Positions 39,709-47,794 of a stretch of 64,000 nt of DNA are shown piece by piece. The DNA comes from Myxococcus stipitatus. GTDB lineage: Bacteria > Myxococcota > Myxococcia > Myxococcales > Myxococcaceae. The notes under the pieces were generated by a model. It ran no database searches and was not told the origin of the DNA. It saw nothing but the letters and a program-made list of their open reading frames with translations. Each line of letters opens with the position of its first letter. Positions within the stretch are counted from its first letter, which is position 1. The stretch covers positions 1,116,001-1,180,000 of the forward strand of contig NZ_JAKCFI010000001.1 of NCBI RefSeq assembly GCF_021412625.1. Reading direction: 5' to 3'. The translations under genes were made by a program, and so were the position numbers.

Positions 39709-41910
39709 TCAGCCGGTGGCGCGAGGCGGACCGTCGAGCTGGGCGCCGACGAGGGCGGCATAGACACCGCCCCGCGCCAGCAGGGCCTCGTGACGTCCAA
39801 TCTCCACCACCCGTCCCTCGTCCATGACCAGGATGACGTCCGCGTCGCGGATGGTGCTCAGCCGGTGCGCGATGACGACGCGGGTGCAGCTCAGCGCCGC
39901 GAGGGCGCGCTGGACCTGGCTCTCCGTGGTGGCGTCGAGGGCGCTGGTCGCTTCGTCCAGCAGGAGGATGGCGGGCCGGCGCACCAGGGCCCTGGCGAGC
40001 GCGAGGCGCTGGCGCTGGCCGCCGGACATGGACAGCCCCCGGTCCGTCAGGGGCGTGTCGTAGCGCAAGGGCATGGCCTGGATGTCGTCGTGCAGGTGCG
40101 CCAGCCGCGCGGCCTCCTCGACGCGGGCCATGTCCAGCTCAGGGTCGCTCAGGGTGATGTTGTCGCGCAGCGAGGCGTTGAAGAAGGAGGCGTCCTGGAG
40201 CACCACCCCGAGCTGGCCGCGCACCGAGTGCAGGTCCAGCTCGCCCAGGTCGGTGCCGTCGTAGAGGACCTTGCCGGAGGTGGGCAGGTACAGCCCGAGC
40301 AGCAGGTGGGCGAGCGTGCTCTTCCCCGCGCCCGAGCGCCCGACGATGGCCACCAGCTGCCCCGGCTCCACGCGGACCGACACGTCCTTCACCACGAGGG
40401 CGGAGTTGGGGTTGTAGCGGAAGCTGACGCCCTCCAGGCGGATGCCGCCTCGCAGCGTCAGGGCCTTCCCCTCGCGCGACTTCTCCCGCTCCGGAGGGGT
40501 GTCGAGCACGTCGTTGATGCGCTCCAGGTAGGTGCCCAGGAACTGGAGCTGGCCGCCGGTGCCGAGCAGGTTGGAGAGCGGCACCAGCAGCGCGATGGCG
40601 AGCGCGTTGAGGCTCAGCATCGCCCCCAGCGTCATCGCCCCTTCGAGCACGCGCCAGGCGCCCACGCACAGCAGCACCAGGGGCGCCACGCGGCGCAGGG
40701 TGTTCGTCACCGCGTCCAGCCAGGCCGACAGCCGGCCCCGCTCCAACTCCACGTTGAGCAGGTCGACGTAGAGGTGCGAATAGCTGCGCGCCATCCGCGA
40801 CTCCACGCCGAACGCCTTGAGCGTCTGCATCCCCGACAGCAGGGCCATGAGGTAGCCCTGGCTGCGGGCGCCCAGGTCCAACGCGCGCGACAGCTGGCTG
40901 CGCTGTCTCGCGCGAGGCACAACGAAGACGAGGAGCTGGAGCAGCCCCAGGCCCACCACGAGCGCTCCCATGGAGGCGTCCGTGGCCAGCAGCAGCGCCA
41001 GGTAGACGAGCACCAGCACCCCGTCCAGCGCGCTGGAGAGCAGGGCGGTGGAGAGCAGGTCCCGGATGGCCTGCTGCGAGCTCAGCCGCCCGAGCAGGTC
41101 CCCGGCGGGGCGATGCTGGAAGAAGGGATAGGCCAGCTGGACGAGGTGGTCGAGGAGCCCTTCGTTCATCCGCGCGTCCATCCGCGTGCGCAGCTCCACC
41201 AGGAGCTGGCCCCGGACCAGGGAGGTGAACAGCTCGAAGAGCACCACGCCCGCGAGCGCCACGGACAGCACGCCCATCAGCGTGTAGTCGTGACGGGGCA
41301 CCACCCGGTCCACCACCACGCCCGTCAGCAGCGGCACGGCCAGGGTGAGCAGCTGGAGGATGCCGGAGAGGACGATGATGCGGGCCAGCCCGGGGAGCTG
41401 CTGGAGGAGCAGGGGAACGACATAGCGGTAGGCGCCACGGCTCACCCGGCCGCGCTCGAAGGTGGGGGCCGGCTCCAGCCGGAGGGCCACGCCGGTGAAG
41501 CACTGGCTGAACTGCTCCATCGTCACGCGACGGCGCCCTTGGTCCGGGTCGACCACGTCCACCCAGCCGTCGCCCAGCCGCTCGAACACCACCCAGTGCA
41601 TGAAGCGCCAGTGGAGGAGGGTCGCGGGTGGGAGGTGGGGCAGGCGGTCCAGGTCCACGGACACCGCGCGCCCGAGCAGCCCGAGCTTGCGCGCGGCGGC
41701 CAGGAGCAACTTCGCGTTGGCGCCATCCCGCCCCGGGCCGGTCAACTCCCGCACCGACTCCAGCGTCACCTCCCGGCCATGGTAGCCGAGCACCATGGCG
41801 AGGCAGGCCGCGCCACAGTCCGTCACGGTCATCTGCCGGACCTCCGGCACGCGCCGACGCCACCAGCGCCAGGACGCGGTCGGAGCCGATCCTTGCGAGC
41901 GCGCGCTCAC
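39709..41910 (-). CDS. Lanthipeptide ABC transporter with C39 peptidase domain (LanT)
   Basis: This 733-residue exporter has three parts: a C39 peptidase (about 22-150) with Gln26, Cys32 (TDCGAACL), His105 and Asp121 all present; six membrane helices (about 165-430); and an ABC ATPase with GRSGAGKST, LSMSGGQ and ILLLDEAT. It should cut precursors after the double glycine and export the mature peptide. The start is a GTG at 41910 that overlaps the stop of the short HlyD-like gene (GTGA). The length is normal for the family. Confidence 0.9.
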   Translation of the reverse strand: MSARSQGSAPTASWRWWRRRVPEVRQMTVTDCGAACLAMVLGYHGREVTLESVRELTGPGRDGANAKLLLAAARKLGLLGRAVSVDLDRLPHLPPATLLHWRFMHWVVFERLGDGWVDVVDPDQGRRRVTMEQFSQCFTGVALRLEPAPTFERGRVSRGAYRYVVPLLLQQLPGLARIIVLSGILQLLTLAVPLLTGVVVDRVVPRHDYTLMGVLSVALAGVVLFELFTSLVRGQLLVELRTRMDARMNEGLLDHLVQLAYPFFQHRPAGDLLGRLSSQQAIRDLLSTALLSSALDGVLVLVYLALLLATDASMGALVVGLGLLQLLVFVVPRARQRSQLSRALDLGARSQGYLMALLSGMQTLKAFGVESRMARSYSHLYVDLLNVELERGRLSAWLDAVTNTLRRVAPLVLLCVGAWRVLEGAMTLGAMLSLNALAIALLVPLSNLLGTGGQLQFLGTYLERINDVLDTPPEREKSREGKALTLRGGIRLEGVSFRYNPNSALVVKDVSVRVEPGQLVAIVGRSGAGKSTLAHLLLGLYLPTSGKVLYDGTDLGELDLHSVRGQLGVVLQDASFFNASLRDNITLSDPELDMARVEEAARLAHLHDDIQAMPLRYDTPLTDRGLSMSGGQRQRLALARALVRRPAILLLDEATSALDATTESQVQRALAALSCTRVVIAHRLSTIRDADVILVMDEGRVVEIGRHEALLARGGVYAALVGAQLDGPPRATG

Positions 41911-42122
41911 GGGGCCTGGAACCTTCCCGCGGACAGCAGGCCCGTCAGGTACAGGGCGCCCACCGCGAGGGCGATGGCGAAGGCGGTCATGAGCACGCCG
42001 CTCCACCGGGTCCAGGTGGGCGCGATGCGCAACAGCTCGCCCTTCTCCTGGACGACGCGTTGGGAGTGCTCGAGGGCTTCCTTGCGGAAGATGGAGGGCG
42101 GGGGCTCCGGAGGGCCGCTCAT
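41907..42122 (-). CDS. Short HlyD-like membrane anchor protein
   Basis: This 71-residue protein resembles only the first part of HlyD-family adaptor proteins: a cytoplasmic IFRKEALEHSQ segment at residues 11-21 and one membrane helix (about 42-64), followed after a few residues by a stop. The usual periplasmic coiled-coil and barrel domains (about 300 residues) are missing and not found nearby. The stop overlaps the transporter start (GTGA), so the short form is integrated in the operon rather than an obvious frameshift. It may anchor or regulate the transporter. Confidence 0.65.
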   Translation of the reverse strand: MSGPPEPPPSIFRKEALEHSQRVVQEKGELLRIAPTWTRWSGVLMTAFAIALAVGALYLTGLLSAGRFQAP

Positions 42123-42167
42123 GGTGGGGACGGTCGGGAGGAACGCATCGCGTGGAGGCCAGGGGGA

Positions 42168-42196
42168 GATGCCGACCCGTCACGAGGGTCGGCATC
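42168..42196 (-). terminator. Perfect 11-bp hairpin between precursor 1 and transporter genes
   Basis: GATGCCGACCC and GGGTCGGCATC pair without mismatch around a seven-base loop. It lies in the 117-bp gap after the precursor genes and has no T-run. It may act as an attenuator or protect the 3' end of precursor mRNA. Confidence 0.65.
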
Positions 42197-42204
42197 CCCG
42201 GTCG

Positions 42205-42231
42205 AGCCCGAGCCGTCGCCGCGCTCGGGCT
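42205..42231 (-). terminator. Perfect 9-bp hairpin directly after precursor 1
   Basis: AGCCCGAGC and GCTCGGGCT pair around a nine-base loop, beginning nine bases after the precursor 1 stop. Together with the next hairpin it forms a tandem structure typical of attenuation between precursor and downstream genes in lantibiotic operons. Confidence 0.65.
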
Positions 42232-42239
42232 TCACGACC

Positions 42240-42455
42240 TCAGAGGCACACCTTCGGCGGACAGGGCGTGCAGATCACGGTGGTCTGCCCCGGCTGGCAA
42301 CAGCCGCCGGTGATGCTCTCCAGGACGTCGTCGTCCAGCTCCAACTCGGAGGCGGGGTTGGCCGGCAGCGCGGCGCGCTCCTCGGCGGTGAGGCTCTCGT
42401 AGTACGCGGGGTCGCTCCATGCGCGGCGGATGTGGTCCTTCTTCGACTGGCTCAT
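42240..42455 (-). CDS. Class II lanthipeptide precursor 1 (LanA1)
   Basis: This 71-residue peptide has an acidic, mersacidin/lichenicidin-type leader (residues 1-51) with LTAEERAALPANP and a double glycine at 50-51, and a 20-residue core with three Thr and five Cys. The core ends in ICTPCPPKVCL; Thr7, Thr8 and Thr12 with Cys11, Cys14 and Cys19 of the core are shared in position with precursor 2. Cys1 and Cys2 have no upstream Ser or Thr and may form a disulfide. GAGGAA precedes the ATG at 42455. It should be modified by the LanM encoded upstream and cut by the C39 transporter. Confidence 0.85.
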   Translation of the reverse strand: MSQSKKDHIRRAWSDPAYYESLTAEERAALPANPASELELDDDVLESITGGCCQPGQTTVICTPCPPKVCL

Positions 42456-42499
42456 ATGGATTCCTCGTTGGAGTGAATGAGAGGCGTGAAGAGGTGGGA

Positions 42500-42715
42500 C
42501 TAGACGCAGTGGTACGGCGGGCACGGCGTGCAGATGGCGGAGCTCTCGGCGGAGGGGCTGTTGCCGCCGCCGATGCTCTCCAGCATGTCGGCGCCCAACT
42601 CGACCTCGTGCGCCGGGCTGGGTGGCAGCGCGGCGCGCTCCTCGGCCGTGAGGCCGGCGAAGTACGCGGGGTCACGCCACGCGCGGAGGATGTGGTCCTT
42701 CTTCGATTGGCTCAT
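42500..42715 (-). CDS. Class II lanthipeptide precursor 2 (LanA2)
   Basis: This 71-residue peptide has a leader nearly identical to precursor 1 (same MSQSKKDHI start and LTAEERAALP block) ending in three glycines at 49-51. The 20-residue core NSPSAESSAICTPCPPYHCV has Ser2, Ser4, Ser7, Ser8 and Thr12 with Cys11, Cys14 and Cys19. AGGAG five bases before the ATG at 42715 fixes the start. It lies 44 bp upstream of precursor 1 and 85 bp after lanM. The two peptides may be a two-component pair or duplicated variants. Confidence 0.85.
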   Translation of the reverse strand: MSQSKKDHILRAWRDPAYFAGLTAEERAALPPSPAHEVELGADMLESIGGGNSPSAESSAICTPCPPYHCV

Positions 42716-42753
42716 CAATGCTCCTGGGTTGTCGAGACGGGCTGGGAGACGCG

Positions 42754-42787
42754 TTCCCCGTGATGGCCAGCCCTCCATCGCGGGGAA
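42754..42787 (-). terminator. Hairpin between lanM and the precursor genes
   Basis: Thirteen-base arms (TTCCCCGTGATGG and CCATCGCGGGGAA) pair with one mismatch around an eight-base loop. It sits between the lanM stop and precursor 2. No T-run follows, so it may be an attenuator or an mRNA processing site. Confidence 0.55.
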
Positions 42788-42800
42788 GGACGGGCCGTGC

Positions 42801-45800
42801 TCAGCGCCTGCCGCGTGGCGGCGGTGGCGCGACGGCCAGCAAGGACGGAAGCGAATCCGGGAGCGCGAGCCGGGCGAGCTGGTAGGCCATGCCCGCCAGC
42901 CCCACCATCAGCCCCGGGGTCTCCGCGTTGCCTTGCAGGCCGTGCAACGGCCCATGCTCCTGGAGCCCCCTCAGGATTCCTCCCGCCACCCTCCGCGCGC
43001 GCTGCTCCAGCGAGGCGTCGCCCAGCGCGCGCGCCGCCTCCAGCAGGAAGTCCACGTTGCCCAGGTCGCCATGGCAGAGGCTGTGGTTGCGTCCGAAGCC
43101 GCGCGCCAGCGTCGAGTCGATGGCCACGGCAATCTCGTCGCGCACCCGCGCGTCGTCCAACAGCGGCAGTCCCCTCACGCGCGCGAGCCCGACGCCCGGC
43201 GCGCCGGTGCACCAGGCCCACATGAAGTGCTCCCCATCGCCTCCCAGCTCGACCGGGCGCGCGCGCAGGTCCGGCCAGTTCCGTTCGCGAGCCGAGTACA
43301 GCGCCCGCTCGTACTCCAGGGCGCGCAGGGCCAGCTCGCGGGGGCGCGGGTCTCCCACCGCCGCCGCCAGCTGGAGCAACGCCAGCGCGGTGCCCGCCAC
43401 GCCGTGCGCGAAGCCCACCAGGTACTGGTTCCCCGCAGCTTCGGAGAGCCAGGCCACGCCCTGCTCCCGTGGGTGGGCGGTGGCCGCGAGCCGGTCGCCG
43501 CAGGCTTGCATCAGCTGTCGCAGCGAGGCGGAGGGGCGATGCGCCTCGAGCCCCAGGAACGCGAGCAGGCAGCCCGCGGAGCCCGCGCCGACGTCCAGGA
43601 CGGTGTCCTCCGCCACGAGGGGGGCGAGCCGCGCCGTGTAGGCCACCGCCTGGTCGAGCAGCGCGTCGTCACCCCAGAGCACGCCCAGGTGCGTGAGCGC
43701 GTAGAGGATTCCTCCCCAGCCGTTGAGGATGCCGAGCCCCCGCGTCCCGCGAGGGTTCTCCTCGCACACGTTCACCAGGGCCACGACGGCGCGACGCGCG
43801 ACGCGTGTGAAGGCCGCGTCACCCGTGGCCTCGCCCAGATAGCCCAGCGACAGGGCGATGCCCGCGAGCCCCTGGAAGACGTCCGTGCCCGGCTGGGCGA
43901 GCTGCCAGCCTCCCTCGCCCGCGAACAGCGAGAGCCACCGCGCCTCGTCGCGGCCCTCGAACGCGAGCGTCAGCAAGCGCCGGCCCACGCCCCGGGCCGC
44001 CTCGAGGAGGGCCTCCCGGCTCGCGGGGAGGGAGGTCTCCTGGAAGGCGTAGCTGGGGCGGTCCGCCACCGTCGAGCCGAGCCAGAGCACGTCGAGGGAG
44101 CGCTCCAGCACCCAGCGCTGGCGCGCGTGGTCGTCCTCGCTCAGCCCCTCCACGCGTCGCCTGACGCGCTCCAGGCCCGACTCCGCGAAGAAGCCGGGCA
44201 GCCGCTCTCCCTGACAGGACTCCAGGTCGCGCGAGCCGGGCCGCGCGCTGAAGTAGGGGATGTCCGCCCGCTCCAGGGCTCGCTGCTCCAGCGGGACGAG
44301 CAGCTCCAGGTCGGGCACCGTCACCACGCTCCGCCAGAGCTGGTCGAGGAAGCGCTGGCGCTCCGCCGCGTCGGCGAGCACATGGGGATGGAAGCTCTCG
44401 AAGTAGAGGGTCCCGTAGACGGCCGTGTTGCGGAACAACACGCGCATGGGCACGTCCGCGAAGGCGGCCAGGGGGCCCTCTGGCGCGAGCAGCTGGGCGC
44501 GGTGGGCGCGCAAGAGCGCGTACATGCGGGAGAAGCCCTCGGCGAGCGCGTCGCGGTGCTCCAGCACGGCGACGTCCGCGCCCTGGAGGGTCGGCAGGTT
44601 CTGCGTCCGCGCCATCTCCACGGGCTGGCGCTCGTAGCGCATCTGGTCCGTGCCCCGCCCGGCGGACACGAGGAAGGCCTGGGACGTCTTCTGTCCGGGA
44701 CGCGCCCCCAGGCCGCTCAAGTCGATGCCACCTCCCTCGCGGGTGCTCCAGAACCGCTGGGGCAGCAGTCCGCTGCGAAGCACCGAAAGGAACGCCACGC
44801 CCTGGTCATGCTCCGCGGCCCGCGGCCTGCGCGTGCCCGACAGCGGATGGAAGAGCGTCTCCAGGTCCACGAGGAAGGGGTGCTCGCCCGCGGCGATGAT
44901 GTTCTCGCAGTGGCAGTCCGTGGCGTCGAGCACGTGCAGGAGCGCCACGTACGCGCCCTGCCGCGCGTAGAAGCGGCGCACCTCTTCCGACGTGGCGCAC
45001 GGCGCGGCGTCCACATGCTCCATCCAGCCGTAGTCGCCCCGGTCCCAGACGCGCACCGTCGCGAGCGAGGGGGTGGCGCCGCGCGCGTTCACCCACGTCA
45101 ACAAGCGCTGGAAGACCGACTCGGGCCCCAGGGAGCGGGGCTTGTAGACGAGCCGCGCGCCGGACGCGAAGCGCAGCACGCACACGCCACGCCCTCCCCG
45201 GTGTGGGTCGGAGAGCCCGCCTCGCGCCTCCACCAGCAGCCCCGGGTCCCCATCGCCATGGATGCGCTCGCGCAGCCCGGCGGCGTCCTCGGCCAGCCGC
45301 CGCATCAGCTCCAGCGACGCGTCCTCCCATTGCGCGACGCGCTCCACCGCCGAGCGGGCCAGGACGGGATAGCGCTCCAGGATGTCGAGCGCGACGGCGC
45401 GCTGGCGCAGCGAGTGTTCGAAGGTCTCGAAGCGGGCCTCGGGCGTCCCTCCCGCGAGGGGGCCGTCCAACTGCGCGGCGTGCAGCTCCACCACGAGCGC
45501 GCGACCGAGCACCGGGGCCAGCCGCAGGGGGAGGTGGCCGAGCAGCAGCGTCGCCGCCTCCGGCGTGAATGGCGCCTCGGGGAATCGCGCCTTCAGCGCC
45601 GTCAGCCCCGCGCGCAACCGCGCATGGGCCCGCCGCACCAGCGGCTCCACCAGCGACAGGAAGGGCACGCGCGGCGTACCCGGTTCAGGGGGCGGCCAGT
45701 CGACGGGCTCCGCCACGGGCCGCGCATACGCCTCCTCCACCTCCGTCGCCCAGGCCGGGGTGGGAGCCTCGACGCCCGCGGGCGGGTCGCCCAGCAGCCC

Positions 45801-46055
45801 GAGCAGCCCGGCCTCGTCGAGCCCCAGCTCTTTCAGCCGCCGCGCCCACCAGTCGCCATGTCCGAAGGGCTCCTGTCGACGCCACGTCTCGAGCCGCCGC
45901 CTCGCTCCCGCGTCCACGGGGCCGGGCGCCGGAGGCCCCTCCAGCGTCGCGAGCCGCTCGCGCAAGGTCGCGGCCTTCCACCAGGAGCGCCGATGGGGCG
46001 CGACGCACCCCGCCGCCGACGCTGTTGCCACGGCCTGTGTCGACGCTGAGACCAT
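42801..46055 (-). CDS. Class II lanthipeptide synthetase LanM
   Basis: This 1084-residue bifunctional enzyme has an N-terminal dehydratase (DUF4135; LVYKPRSLGPE near 300, DATDCHCENIIAAGEHPFLVDLETLF near 390) and a C-terminal LanC-like cyclase with the zinc site WCTGAPGVGLAR and CHGDLGN (Cys, Cys-His). It should dehydrate Ser/Thr in the two precursor cores and join them to Cys as lanthionine or methyllanthionine. The ATG at 46055 with GAGAGG four bases upstream is preferred over 46067. It is the first gene of the lan operon; a TTGACA box lies 90 bp upstream. Confidence 0.92.
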   Translation of the reverse strand: MVSASTQAVATASAAGCVAPHRRSWWKAATLRERLATLEGPPAPGPVDAGARRRLETWRRQEPFGHGDWWARRLKELGLDEAGLLGLLGDPPAGVEAPTPAWATEVEEAYARPVAEPVDWPPPEPGTPRVPFLSLVEPLVRRAHARLRAGLTALKARFPEAPFTPEAATLLLGHLPLRLAPVLGRALVVELHAAQLDGPLAGGTPEARFETFEHSLRQRAVALDILERYPVLARSAVERVAQWEDASLELMRRLAEDAAGLRERIHGDGDPGLLVEARGGLSDPHRGGRGVCVLRFASGARLVYKPRSLGPESVFQRLLTWVNARGATPSLATVRVWDRGDYGWMEHVDAAPCATSEEVRRFYARQGAYVALLHVLDATDCHCENIIAAGEHPFLVDLETLFHPLSGTRRPRAAEHDQGVAFLSVLRSGLLPQRFWSTREGGGIDLSGLGARPGQKTSQAFLVSAGRGTDQMRYERQPVEMARTQNLPTLQGADVAVLEHRDALAEGFSRMYALLRAHRAQLLAPEGPLAAFADVPMRVLFRNTAVYGTLYFESFHPHVLADAAERQRFLDQLWRSVVTVPDLELLVPLEQRALERADIPYFSARPGSRDLESCQGERLPGFFAESGLERVRRRVEGLSEDDHARQRWVLERSLDVLWLGSTVADRPSYAFQETSLPASREALLEAARGVGRRLLTLAFEGRDEARWLSLFAGEGGWQLAQPGTDVFQGLAGIALSLGYLGEATGDAAFTRVARRAVVALVNVCEENPRGTRGLGILNGWGGILYALTHLGVLWGDDALLDQAVAYTARLAPLVAEDTVLDVGAGSAGCLLAFLGLEAHRPSASLRQLMQACGDRLAATAHPREQGVAWLSEAAGNQYLVGFAHGVAGTALALLQLAAAVGDPRPRELALRALEYERALYSARERNWPDLRARPVELGGDGEHFMWAWCTGAPGVGLARVRGLPLLDDARVRDEIAVAIDSTLARGFGRNHSLCHGDLGNVDFLLEAARALGDASLEQRARRVAGGILRGLQEHGPLHGLQGNAETPGLMVGLAGMAYQLARLALPDSLPSLLAVAPPPPRGRR

Positions 46056-46121
46056 GTTGCCTCTCATTCCAGACAGCCGGGTGAGGGGTTGCGATGGTGT
46101 GGCGAGGCTTTGGTGGATGAT

Positions 46122-46150
46122 TGGTATTTCAAATGATGATTTGATGTCAA
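46122..46150 (-). promoter_or_regulatory. Candidate lanM promoter with operator dyad in the spacer
   Basis: On the minus strand a consensus -35 TTGACA (46145-46150) is followed by a perfect dyad, TCAAAT-N4-ATTTGA (46129-46144), and then a weak -10 (ATACCA at 46122-46127, 17-bp spacing). The patch is strikingly AT-rich against the surroundings and lies between divergent lanM and the GMC oxidoreductase. A dyad inside the spacer suggests repressor or MerR-type control. No regulator gene is adjacent. Confidence 0.55.
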
Positions 46151-46186: not shown

Positions 46187-47794
46187 ATGTCGGTGCGGGA
46201 AGGTGTGGGTGAGCTGTATGACGTGCTCATCATTGGCAGCGGCGCGGGCGGTGGACCGCTGGCCCTCTCACTCTCGAGCGCGGGGCTGCGGGTGCTCGTG
46301 CTCGAGAAGGGCCGCGAGTACGCGCGCGAGGCGTATGCGCATGGCCCTGGTGGGCTGGAGCCCCAGGCGTTGATCCCCCGCGTCGAGGAGGACCCCCACA
46401 CCGTCGTCACCCGGAAGACTGTCAATCCATTGCGCAATGCATTGGGCTGGACCGCGTCATGTGTTGGCGGCGCGACGGTCCATATGGGTGGATATTTCTA
46501 TCGTTTTCATCCTGATGACATGCGGATGCGGAGCCGGTTCGGTGTGTATGAAGAGTTGGAGGACTGGCCCTATGACTACGACGCGTTGGAGCCCTGGTAT
46601 GGGTTGGCGGAGCGCGAGGTCGGGGTGTCTGGACTGGCGGGGGTGAACCCTTTCGAGGGGCCCCGCTCCACGCCGTATCCGATGCCGCCGTTGGAGGCGC
46701 ATCCGCTGGCGGAGGCGTTGGACGTGGCGTGCCGGCGCAGGGGGCTGCATCCGTTCCCCACGCCGCGCGCCATCAACTCACGGCCCTACCTGGGGCGCCC
46801 CGCGTGCGCCTACTGCGCGCGGTGTTCCGGCCTGGGCTGTCCGGTGGGCGCGCGTGGGAGCAGCCAGGAGGCGTTGCTGCCGCGGGCGATGGCCACCGGG
46901 CGATGCGAGCTGCGCGCGCTGGCGCAGGCGCGCGAGGTGACGCTCGGGGCGGATGGGCGGGTCTCCGGCTGTGTCTACCTCGACGACAGGGGGCGGGAGC
47001 ACCGGGTCCTCGCGAGGGTGGTGTGCGTGTGCTGCTCCGCGGTGGAGTCCGCGCGCCTGCTGCTGTTGTCTCGCTCGCCGCGCTTCCCCGACGGCCTGGC
47101 CAACGGCAGCGGCCGGGTGGGGCGGCACCTCCAGTTCCATGGCGTCACCATGGCGCGGGCGCGGCTGCCGTTGGACCGGGGGCCGGGGGCGACGATGGTG
47201 GATCCGCATCCCTTCATCGGCCGCTCGGTGATGGACCACTACTTCCTCCCCGACGGGGTCTCGGAGCTGGCCAAGGGGGGCATCCTGCGCTTCGGCCGGA
47301 TGGCGCCGGTCCCGGAGACGCTCGAAGGGGCGTCGTCCGCCGCGACGGGGGAGCTGTTCTGCGAGGTGTTCCACGACTTCATCCCCAACGCGCGGACGTC
47401 CATGGTGTTGGACCCGGAGGTGAAGGACCGCTGGGGCCTGCCGGTGGCGCGCATCCACCTGGACCGACCCCGGCACCATGTCCGCGCGGGCGCGTGGTTG
47501 CAGGCGCGCGTCTTCGAGCTGTTCGGTGACCTGGGCGCGGAGTCGATGGAGTCGCTCGTCGTCGGGGGGACGTCCTCGTACCTGGTCCACGGCACGTGCC
47601 GCGCGGGGAGCGACCCGGCGACGTCGGTGCTCGACGCCCATTGTCAGGCCCACGAGGTGGACAACCTCTTCGTGGTGGACGGCTCGTTCATGCCGACCTC
47701 CGGGGGCGCGGCGCCCACGTTGACCATCCTCGCCAACGCCTTCCGCACCGCCGACCACATCGCCCGGCGTTTCCGGGCGGGCGACTTCGGCTGA
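46187..47794 (+). CDS. GMC-family FAD oxidoreductase
   Basis: This 535-residue flavoenzyme has the FAD motif IGSGAGGGP at residues 16-24, a GMC N-domain with CVGGATVHMGGYFYR, a Cys-rich CAYCARCSGLGCPVGARG insert near 205-222, and a C-terminal LVHGTCRAGSDP...VVDGSFMPTSGG region. It resembles the large subunit of gluconate 2-dehydrogenase-like enzymes, but no small or cytochrome subunit is nearby. It is divergent from lanM across 131 bp with a shared control region, so it may be a tailoring or self-linked enzyme of the lanthipeptide locus. A role unrelated to the peptide is also possible. Confidence 0.82.
   Translation: MSVREGVGELYDVLIIGSGAGGGPLALSLSSAGLRVLVLEKGREYAREAYAHGPGGLEPQALIPRVEEDPHTVVTRKTVNPLRNALGWTASCVGGATVHMGGYFYRFHPDDMRMRSRFGVYEELEDWPYDYDALEPWYGLAEREVGVSGLAGVNPFEGPRSTPYPMPPLEAHPLAEALDVACRRRGLHPFPTPRAINSRPYLGRPACAYCARCSGLGCPVGARGSSQEALLPRAMATGRCELRALAQAREVTLGADGRVSGCVYLDDRGREHRVLARVVCVCCSAVESARLLLLSRSPRFPDGLANGSGRVGRHLQFHGVTMARARLPLDRGPGATMVDPHPFIGRSVMDHYFLPDGVSELAKGGILRFGRMAPVPETLEGASSAATGELFCEVFHDFIPNARTSMVLDPEVKDRWGLPVARIHLDRPRHHVRAGAWLQARVFELFGDLGAESMESLVVGGTSSYLVHGTCRAGSDPATSVLDAHCQAHEVDNLFVVDGSFMPTSGGAAPTLTILANAFRTADHIARRFRAGDFG

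Follow-up and report, generated by a model that had tools for sequence, protein, structure and literature searches.

Conserved order and gene content of a lanthipeptide operon

The 64,000-nucleotide stretch of Myxococcus stipitatus DNA that was analyzed (hereafter the window, from a genome of 10.1 Mb, G000) contains five adjacent genes on its minus strand, which raise the question of whether they form a working lanthipeptide operon and, if so, what kind of peptide it makes and how this peptide leaves the cell. An initial annotation had read them as a class II lanthipeptide operon consisting of a LanM, two precursors, a short HlyD-like anchor and a C39 transporter. This five-gene set was confirmed in the proposed place and order (lanM, lanA1, lanA2, the HlyD stub gene and lanT; Table 1), and both the class and the presence of two precursors were borne out by family scores and domain content. 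A chance set of ORFs was ruled out, since the identical gene set recurs at one chromosomal place in 11 Myxococcus genomes in total. With respect to this operon, the closest named relative is Myxococcus qinghaiensis.

The same gene set and order are found in a cluster predicted in M. xanthus DK1622, which comprises a LanT (MXAN_2853), a small unknown protein (MXAN_2854), two precursors (MXAN_2855 and MXAN_2856) and a LanM (MXAN_2857; PMC3951391). MXAN_2854 lies at the position of the stub, orthology being assigned here from gene order. Hence, the initial annotation had the class right, while the kind of operon was already known from DK1622. As judged from its sequence, the M. stipitatus operon is a sound and well-conserved class II lanthipeptide operon of the cluster type predicted in 2014, of which it is a variant by virtue of its HlyD stub and its fixed core, CTPCPPxxC. 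What is new beyond that prediction is the shared core motif, the stub as the outcome of one HlyD loss, the fixed site and the paralogous precursors; the main texts of the two reports (PMC3951391 and PMC3509222) mention neither the shared core motif, nor the HlyD origin of the small protein, nor the empty chromosomal sites described below.

Table 1. Features of the lanthipeptide operon and its surroundings (window coordinates).
Feature	Position	Strand	Basis
lanM: class II lanthipeptide synthetase (dehydratase + LanC-like cyclase)	42801..46055	-	TIGR03897, DUF4135, LANC_like
lanA1: precursor, 71 aa, core NSPSAESSAICTPCPPYHCV after double Gly	42500..42715	-	TIGR03898 E=2.3e-14, precursor alignment
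lanA2: precursor, 71 aa, core CCQPGQTTVICTPCPPKVCL after double Gly	42240..42455	-	TIGR03898 E=1.3e-18, precursor alignment
RNA hairpin, 14-bp stem, between lanA2 and stub gene	42165..42199	-	RNA fold
HlyD stub, 71 aa: cytosolic N-terminal helix and one transmembrane helix, without periplasmic adaptor domain	41907..42122	-	
lanT: C39 peptidase-ABC exporter	39709..41910	-	Peptidase_C39, ABC_membrane, ABC_tran
Putative lanM promoter, TTGACA-N17-ATACCA	46122..46150	-	Similar layout in related Myxococcus operons
GMC oxidoreductase gene, divergent, adjoining lanM	46187-47794	+	

LanM matches TIGR03897 with 917.5 bits (E=7.7e-276; cut-off 304) and combines a DUF4135 with a LANC_like domain, as in a single bifunctional dehydratase/cyclase. 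Its best solved relative is LicM2 (6st5; E=5e-114). In the alignment, the residues that we take to form the CylM active site (D252, H254, K274, D347, H349, D364, R506 and T512) are identical in LanM, and the zinc-ligand motifs WCTGAPG and CHG are present. All LanM positions compared with CylM and LicM2 were thus identical and the LanT motifs look intact, in agreement with the claim that the catalytic residues of this operon are preserved. The ATG at 46055, which has a GAGAGG ribosome site, is a likelier lanM start than the in-frame ATG at 46067.

An invariant core motif shared by both precursors

Both precursors pass the TIGR03898 cut-off of 23.5 (53.1 and 66.7 bits), and they are the only two proteins of their genome to do so. 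The leader, the double-Gly site, the LanM and the C39 LanT are features in common with the mersacidin/lichenicidin type 2 lantibiotics (TIGR03898). Mersacidin-type peptides are lipid II binders, and cores of this type carry TxTxEC/CTLTxEC, whereas the cores encoded here read [S/T]xxCTPCPPxxC. The mersacidin CTLTxEC or TxTxEC motif is absent from both cores, as the initial annotation had stated for CTLTxEC, and also from all 19 aligned relatives. Conversely, the 19 related cores that were aligned, from three genera, all carry an unvarying [S/T]xxCTPCPPxxC, the residue three before the first motif Cys being Ser, and Thr in LanA2. The additional claim that the cores match none known stood only in part: no bacterial CTPCPP core is printed in the open-access papers searched, and we know of no CTPCPP peptide with a known mass spectrum or activity, but a cluster of the same layout had been predicted in DK1622, and the core is not unique, its motif being common to 19 or more related precursors without change.

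Precursor matches were obtained from 37 of the 145 genomes searched in the order. When the CTPCPPxxC pattern was searched in 195 genomes of the phylum, further matches outside the operon had no TIGR03898-like leader in the fetched loci. Pairs of a LanM and a precursor with a CTPCPP core occur in two other genera (L044, L046 and L047), with no relative of the operon's LanT or stub inside the 16 kb fetched. A second LanM system, with related leaders and a different core (..CPATPTPNELTCLYTNCGRIACCR), is present in Myxococcus genomes (L048 and L049).

The core motif was also compared with the A/B rings of nisin (SxxxCTPGC), which present Ser, Cys, Thr, Pro and Cys in the same order; in contrast to nisin, [S/T]xxCTPC has one residue fewer per putative ring and belongs to a class II precursor. 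The full SxxxCTPGC motif, which the core here does not contain, has been reported only in class I (PMC7268733). By sequence, the core motif resembles the nisin A/B-ring motif shortened by one residue.

Among characterized peptides, LanII-2B of Archangium violaceum is likewise a class II lanthipeptide from a myxobacterium; it has four Ser/Thr and three Cys, is weakly active on Gram-negatives and, when produced in E. coli, carries two dehydrations, one Lan, one MeLan and one free Cys (PMC9576775). Two cores of a related genus (g3, probably Archangium), GITGEPTSAYCTPCPPKYCY and KAALEPSTGCTDGVPTCGIVPFCDLEVA, fit these residue counts. With two candidate cores fitting, we did not accept LanII-2B as a proven CTPCPP member. 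The biosynthesis of another myxobacterial lanthipeptide, myxococin, is said to need a LanC and an M61 protease as well, neither of which is encoded in the operon described here. Myxococin is a product of Myxococcus fulvus made with a LanM (JACS 2023, cited in PMC11251773).

Taking into account that the two precursor genes are adjacent and that LicM2 is the nearest PDB relative of LanM, LanA1 and LanA2 could be regarded as the synergistic alpha/beta pair of a two-component lantibiotic, as in lichenicidin or haloduracin. However, the alpha and beta cores of such a pair are normally unlike each other and come with two LanMs, whereas the M. stipitatus genome has one LanM only and the C-terminal motif is common to both cores. 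In addition, related Myxococcus operons hold one, two or three precursors, one of them with a decayed extra core. We consider a two-component system highly improbable and rejected it on the basis of the single LanM, the shared core motif and the variable precursor number. LanA1 and LanA2 rather appear to be copy-number-variable paralogues of one peptide type made by one LanM.

The decayed core (L042) lies in the gap between the last precursor and the stub gene and reads ..CTPCLPSVRM, a sign of precursor turnover.

A fixed but variably occupied chromosomal site

The operon is present in 11 of 27 Myxococcus genomes and absent from 16. The ten genomes other than that of the window hold LanM, one to three precursors, the stub and LanT in one order, including G119, which was counted although its operon is split over two contigs. 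Wherever its flanks were readable, the operon has an amidase gene on one side and a gene for an SNF2-type helicase on the other. No operon trace was found in the amidase-helicase intervals read in 15 of the 16 operon-lacking genomes. The nearest sister (G096, L188) has an empty site, namely an interval of ~0.7 kb with neither operon nor GMC gene, and a helicase that is 96% identical. In other Myxococcus genomes up to about 14 kb of different DNA occupies the interval, marking the site as a variable spot. It is possible that the patchy distribution arose through repeated loss, or through transfer by recombination in the flanks.

The divergent GMC oxidoreductase gene is intact in the window and in two relatives (L035/L053 and L036), and it is a short N-terminal remnant in three others (L037, L038 and L040), so it is probably not needed. 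As it is absent or an N-terminal remnant outside the window and these two relatives, a role as tailoring enzyme is unlikely.

Expression signals

Upstream of lanM, Myxococcus operons have a TTGACA or near match followed by 17 bases and a weak -10, and it is this weak -10 that caused a simple consensus scan to miss the putative promoter in the window. Between lanA2 and the stub gene, the region 42123-42239 folds with -63.5 kcal/mol (z=-3.55), and a stem, often of different sequence, is found at the same place in 9 of 9 other operons examined. The stems fell out of register in a MAFFT alignment of the hairpins, and Rfam gave no match. Lacking a T-run, the hairpin is not a classical terminator; it is likely an attenuator or an mRNA stabiliser. 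As a rule, hairpins of this sort shift the mRNA balance towards the precursor and away from the transporter.

In M. xanthus, two lantibiotic genes are reduced in sgmT and digR mutants, and MXAN2857 is listed among the DigR-activated promoters; the operator search of that study was weak in that it tolerated four mismatches (PMC3509222). Upstream of lanM in the window no DigR operator was recognised, the best site departing from it at 6 of 12 letters, no closer a match than is obtained elsewhere.

A conserved HlyD stub next to the LanT exporter

LanT matches PCAT1 (4ry2) over its full length (E=9e-109), and thus corresponds to the C39-ABC transporter of Type I / PCAT tripartite export systems. 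The HlyD-family periplasmic adaptor of these systems is missing: only the N-terminal helix and the anchor remain, and the stub ends right behind its membrane helix, whereas the proteins of sister systems have ~310 residues or more. An AlphaFold model of the stub consists of two helices at low confidence (pLDDT 69).

A search with the stub profile gave about 80 matches in the order, among them eleven stubs, all inside this operon type; the remaining matches all fall in frames of 252-641 aa. In 19 of 19 full-length LanT loci examined, HlyD is encoded upstream of LanT and extends ~270-320 residues from the match to the stop. In a tree of 30 LanTs, those associated with a stub form one clade (100/100) with full-length HlyD systems around it, so that one loss of the periplasmic adaptor explains the data. 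A local frameshift in hlyD can be ruled out: the truncation is common to all operons of the clade, and its single origin is supported at 100/100. The "short HlyD-like anchor" of the initial annotation was therefore a correct description of a conserved truncation with one evolutionary origin.

To describe selection on the operon we used pN/pS, the values of which are rough, many sequence pairs being divergent. The medians were 0.22 for LanT, the most constrained gene of the operon, 0.39 for the leader, 0.40 for LanM and 0.50 for the stub, which splits into a cytosolic part (0.32) and a membrane part (0.69). The whole core has a median of 1.12, against 0.51 for its stretch from the motif onwards. 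This pattern suggests conservation of the enzymes, the leader and the C-terminal motif, and free variation in the N-terminal half of the core.

The stub could be a mere remnant of a broken export system, in which case the peptide would be made and its secretion would stop at the periplasm. This would fit the lack of the periplasmic adaptor in every operon of the stub clade and the result of the profile search, which found no second HlyD of the stub's type in the M. stipitatus genome. On the other hand, the stub is retained in 11 of 11 operon-bearing Myxococcus genomes with invariant residues (FRKEAL.H.QRVVQ..G.LLRI...W.RW), its cytosolic part is constrained, its stop codon in most operons shares bases with the lanT start (GTGA in the window, ATGA elsewhere), and no gene of the operon is under stronger constraint than lanT. 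Broken export is thus improbable, and the stub presumably still docks on LanT. It is conceivable, if rather doubtful, that the stub represents a new small accessory subunit, whose cytosolic helix and anchor are enough for a C39 exporter to deliver a lanthipeptide bearing a contracted nisin-like motif, no dedicated trans-periplasmic adaptor being involved.

Proposed biosynthesis and role of the peptides

The operon is very probably functional, with ring-bridged peptides made by LanM, exported by LanT and the stub, and acting outside the producer. Support comes from the family scores, the preserved catalytic residues, the conservation in 11 genomes, the invariant motif, the pN/pS values, the promoter-like element and the hairpin, as well as from the DigR-linked counterpart of M. 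xanthus and the rings formed on LanII-2B in E. coli (PMC3509222; PMC9576775). The initial reading of a "compact operon, probably functional" is likewise backed by the conserved order, purifying selection, the promoter-like element and the DigR link of the M. xanthus counterpart. Counting against it are the lack of an immunity gene (LanFEG or LanI) in the operon, the 16 Myxococcus genomes without the operon, the missing adaptor, which leaves passage across the outer membrane unaccounted for, and the lack of a recognisable DigR operator upstream of lanM in the window.

From these data we infer a route for ring formation, leader cleavage, export and activity. LanM would bind the mersacidin-type leaders and dehydrate Ser/Thr of the core, including the invariant Ser/Thr three residues before the first motif Cys (-3) and the Thr right behind this Cys (+1), and would then close thioether rings with Cys of CTPCPPxxC. 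Most likely at least two rings would form, one from Ser/Thr(-3) to a motif Cys and one from Thr(+1) to a motif Cys. The C39 domain of LanT would cut the leader after GG/GA, and LanT would export the 20-residue products across the inner membrane with the help of the stub, which would have kept the cytosolic helix and the membrane anchor and lost the tube-forming periplasmic adaptor. Outside the producing cell, the products would most likely serve as antimicrobials of weak or specialised action, or as peptides associated with the matrix.

It should be noted that the same biosynthesis could yield a signal or matrix peptide, secreted as part of the motility/fruiting programme, instead of an antimicrobial, given that the M. 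xanthus operon is listed among the promoters activated by SgmT/DigR, a system that governs the composition of the extracellular matrix (PMC3509222), that no immunity gene accompanies the operon, and that none of the known target-binding motifs occurs in exact form in the core. We regard this role as possible, although on the less likely side, as the patchy distribution (11 of 27 genomes), the variable copy number and the fast-drifting N-terminal half of the core look like the marks of competition.

As a functional class II lanthipeptide operon, the locus would represent a conserved and testable myxobacterial peptide family, with one invariant motif and natural variants in at least 11 genomes, that can be studied with the help of a sister strain whose site is empty and of a tractable counterpart in M. 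xanthus DK1622. The motif, whose resemblance to nisin is one of sequence only, raises the question of whether a scaled-down nisin lipid II cage lies within the reach of class II enzymes, and the stub may show, as an experiment done by nature, which portion of HlyD is indispensable to a peptidase-containing exporter.
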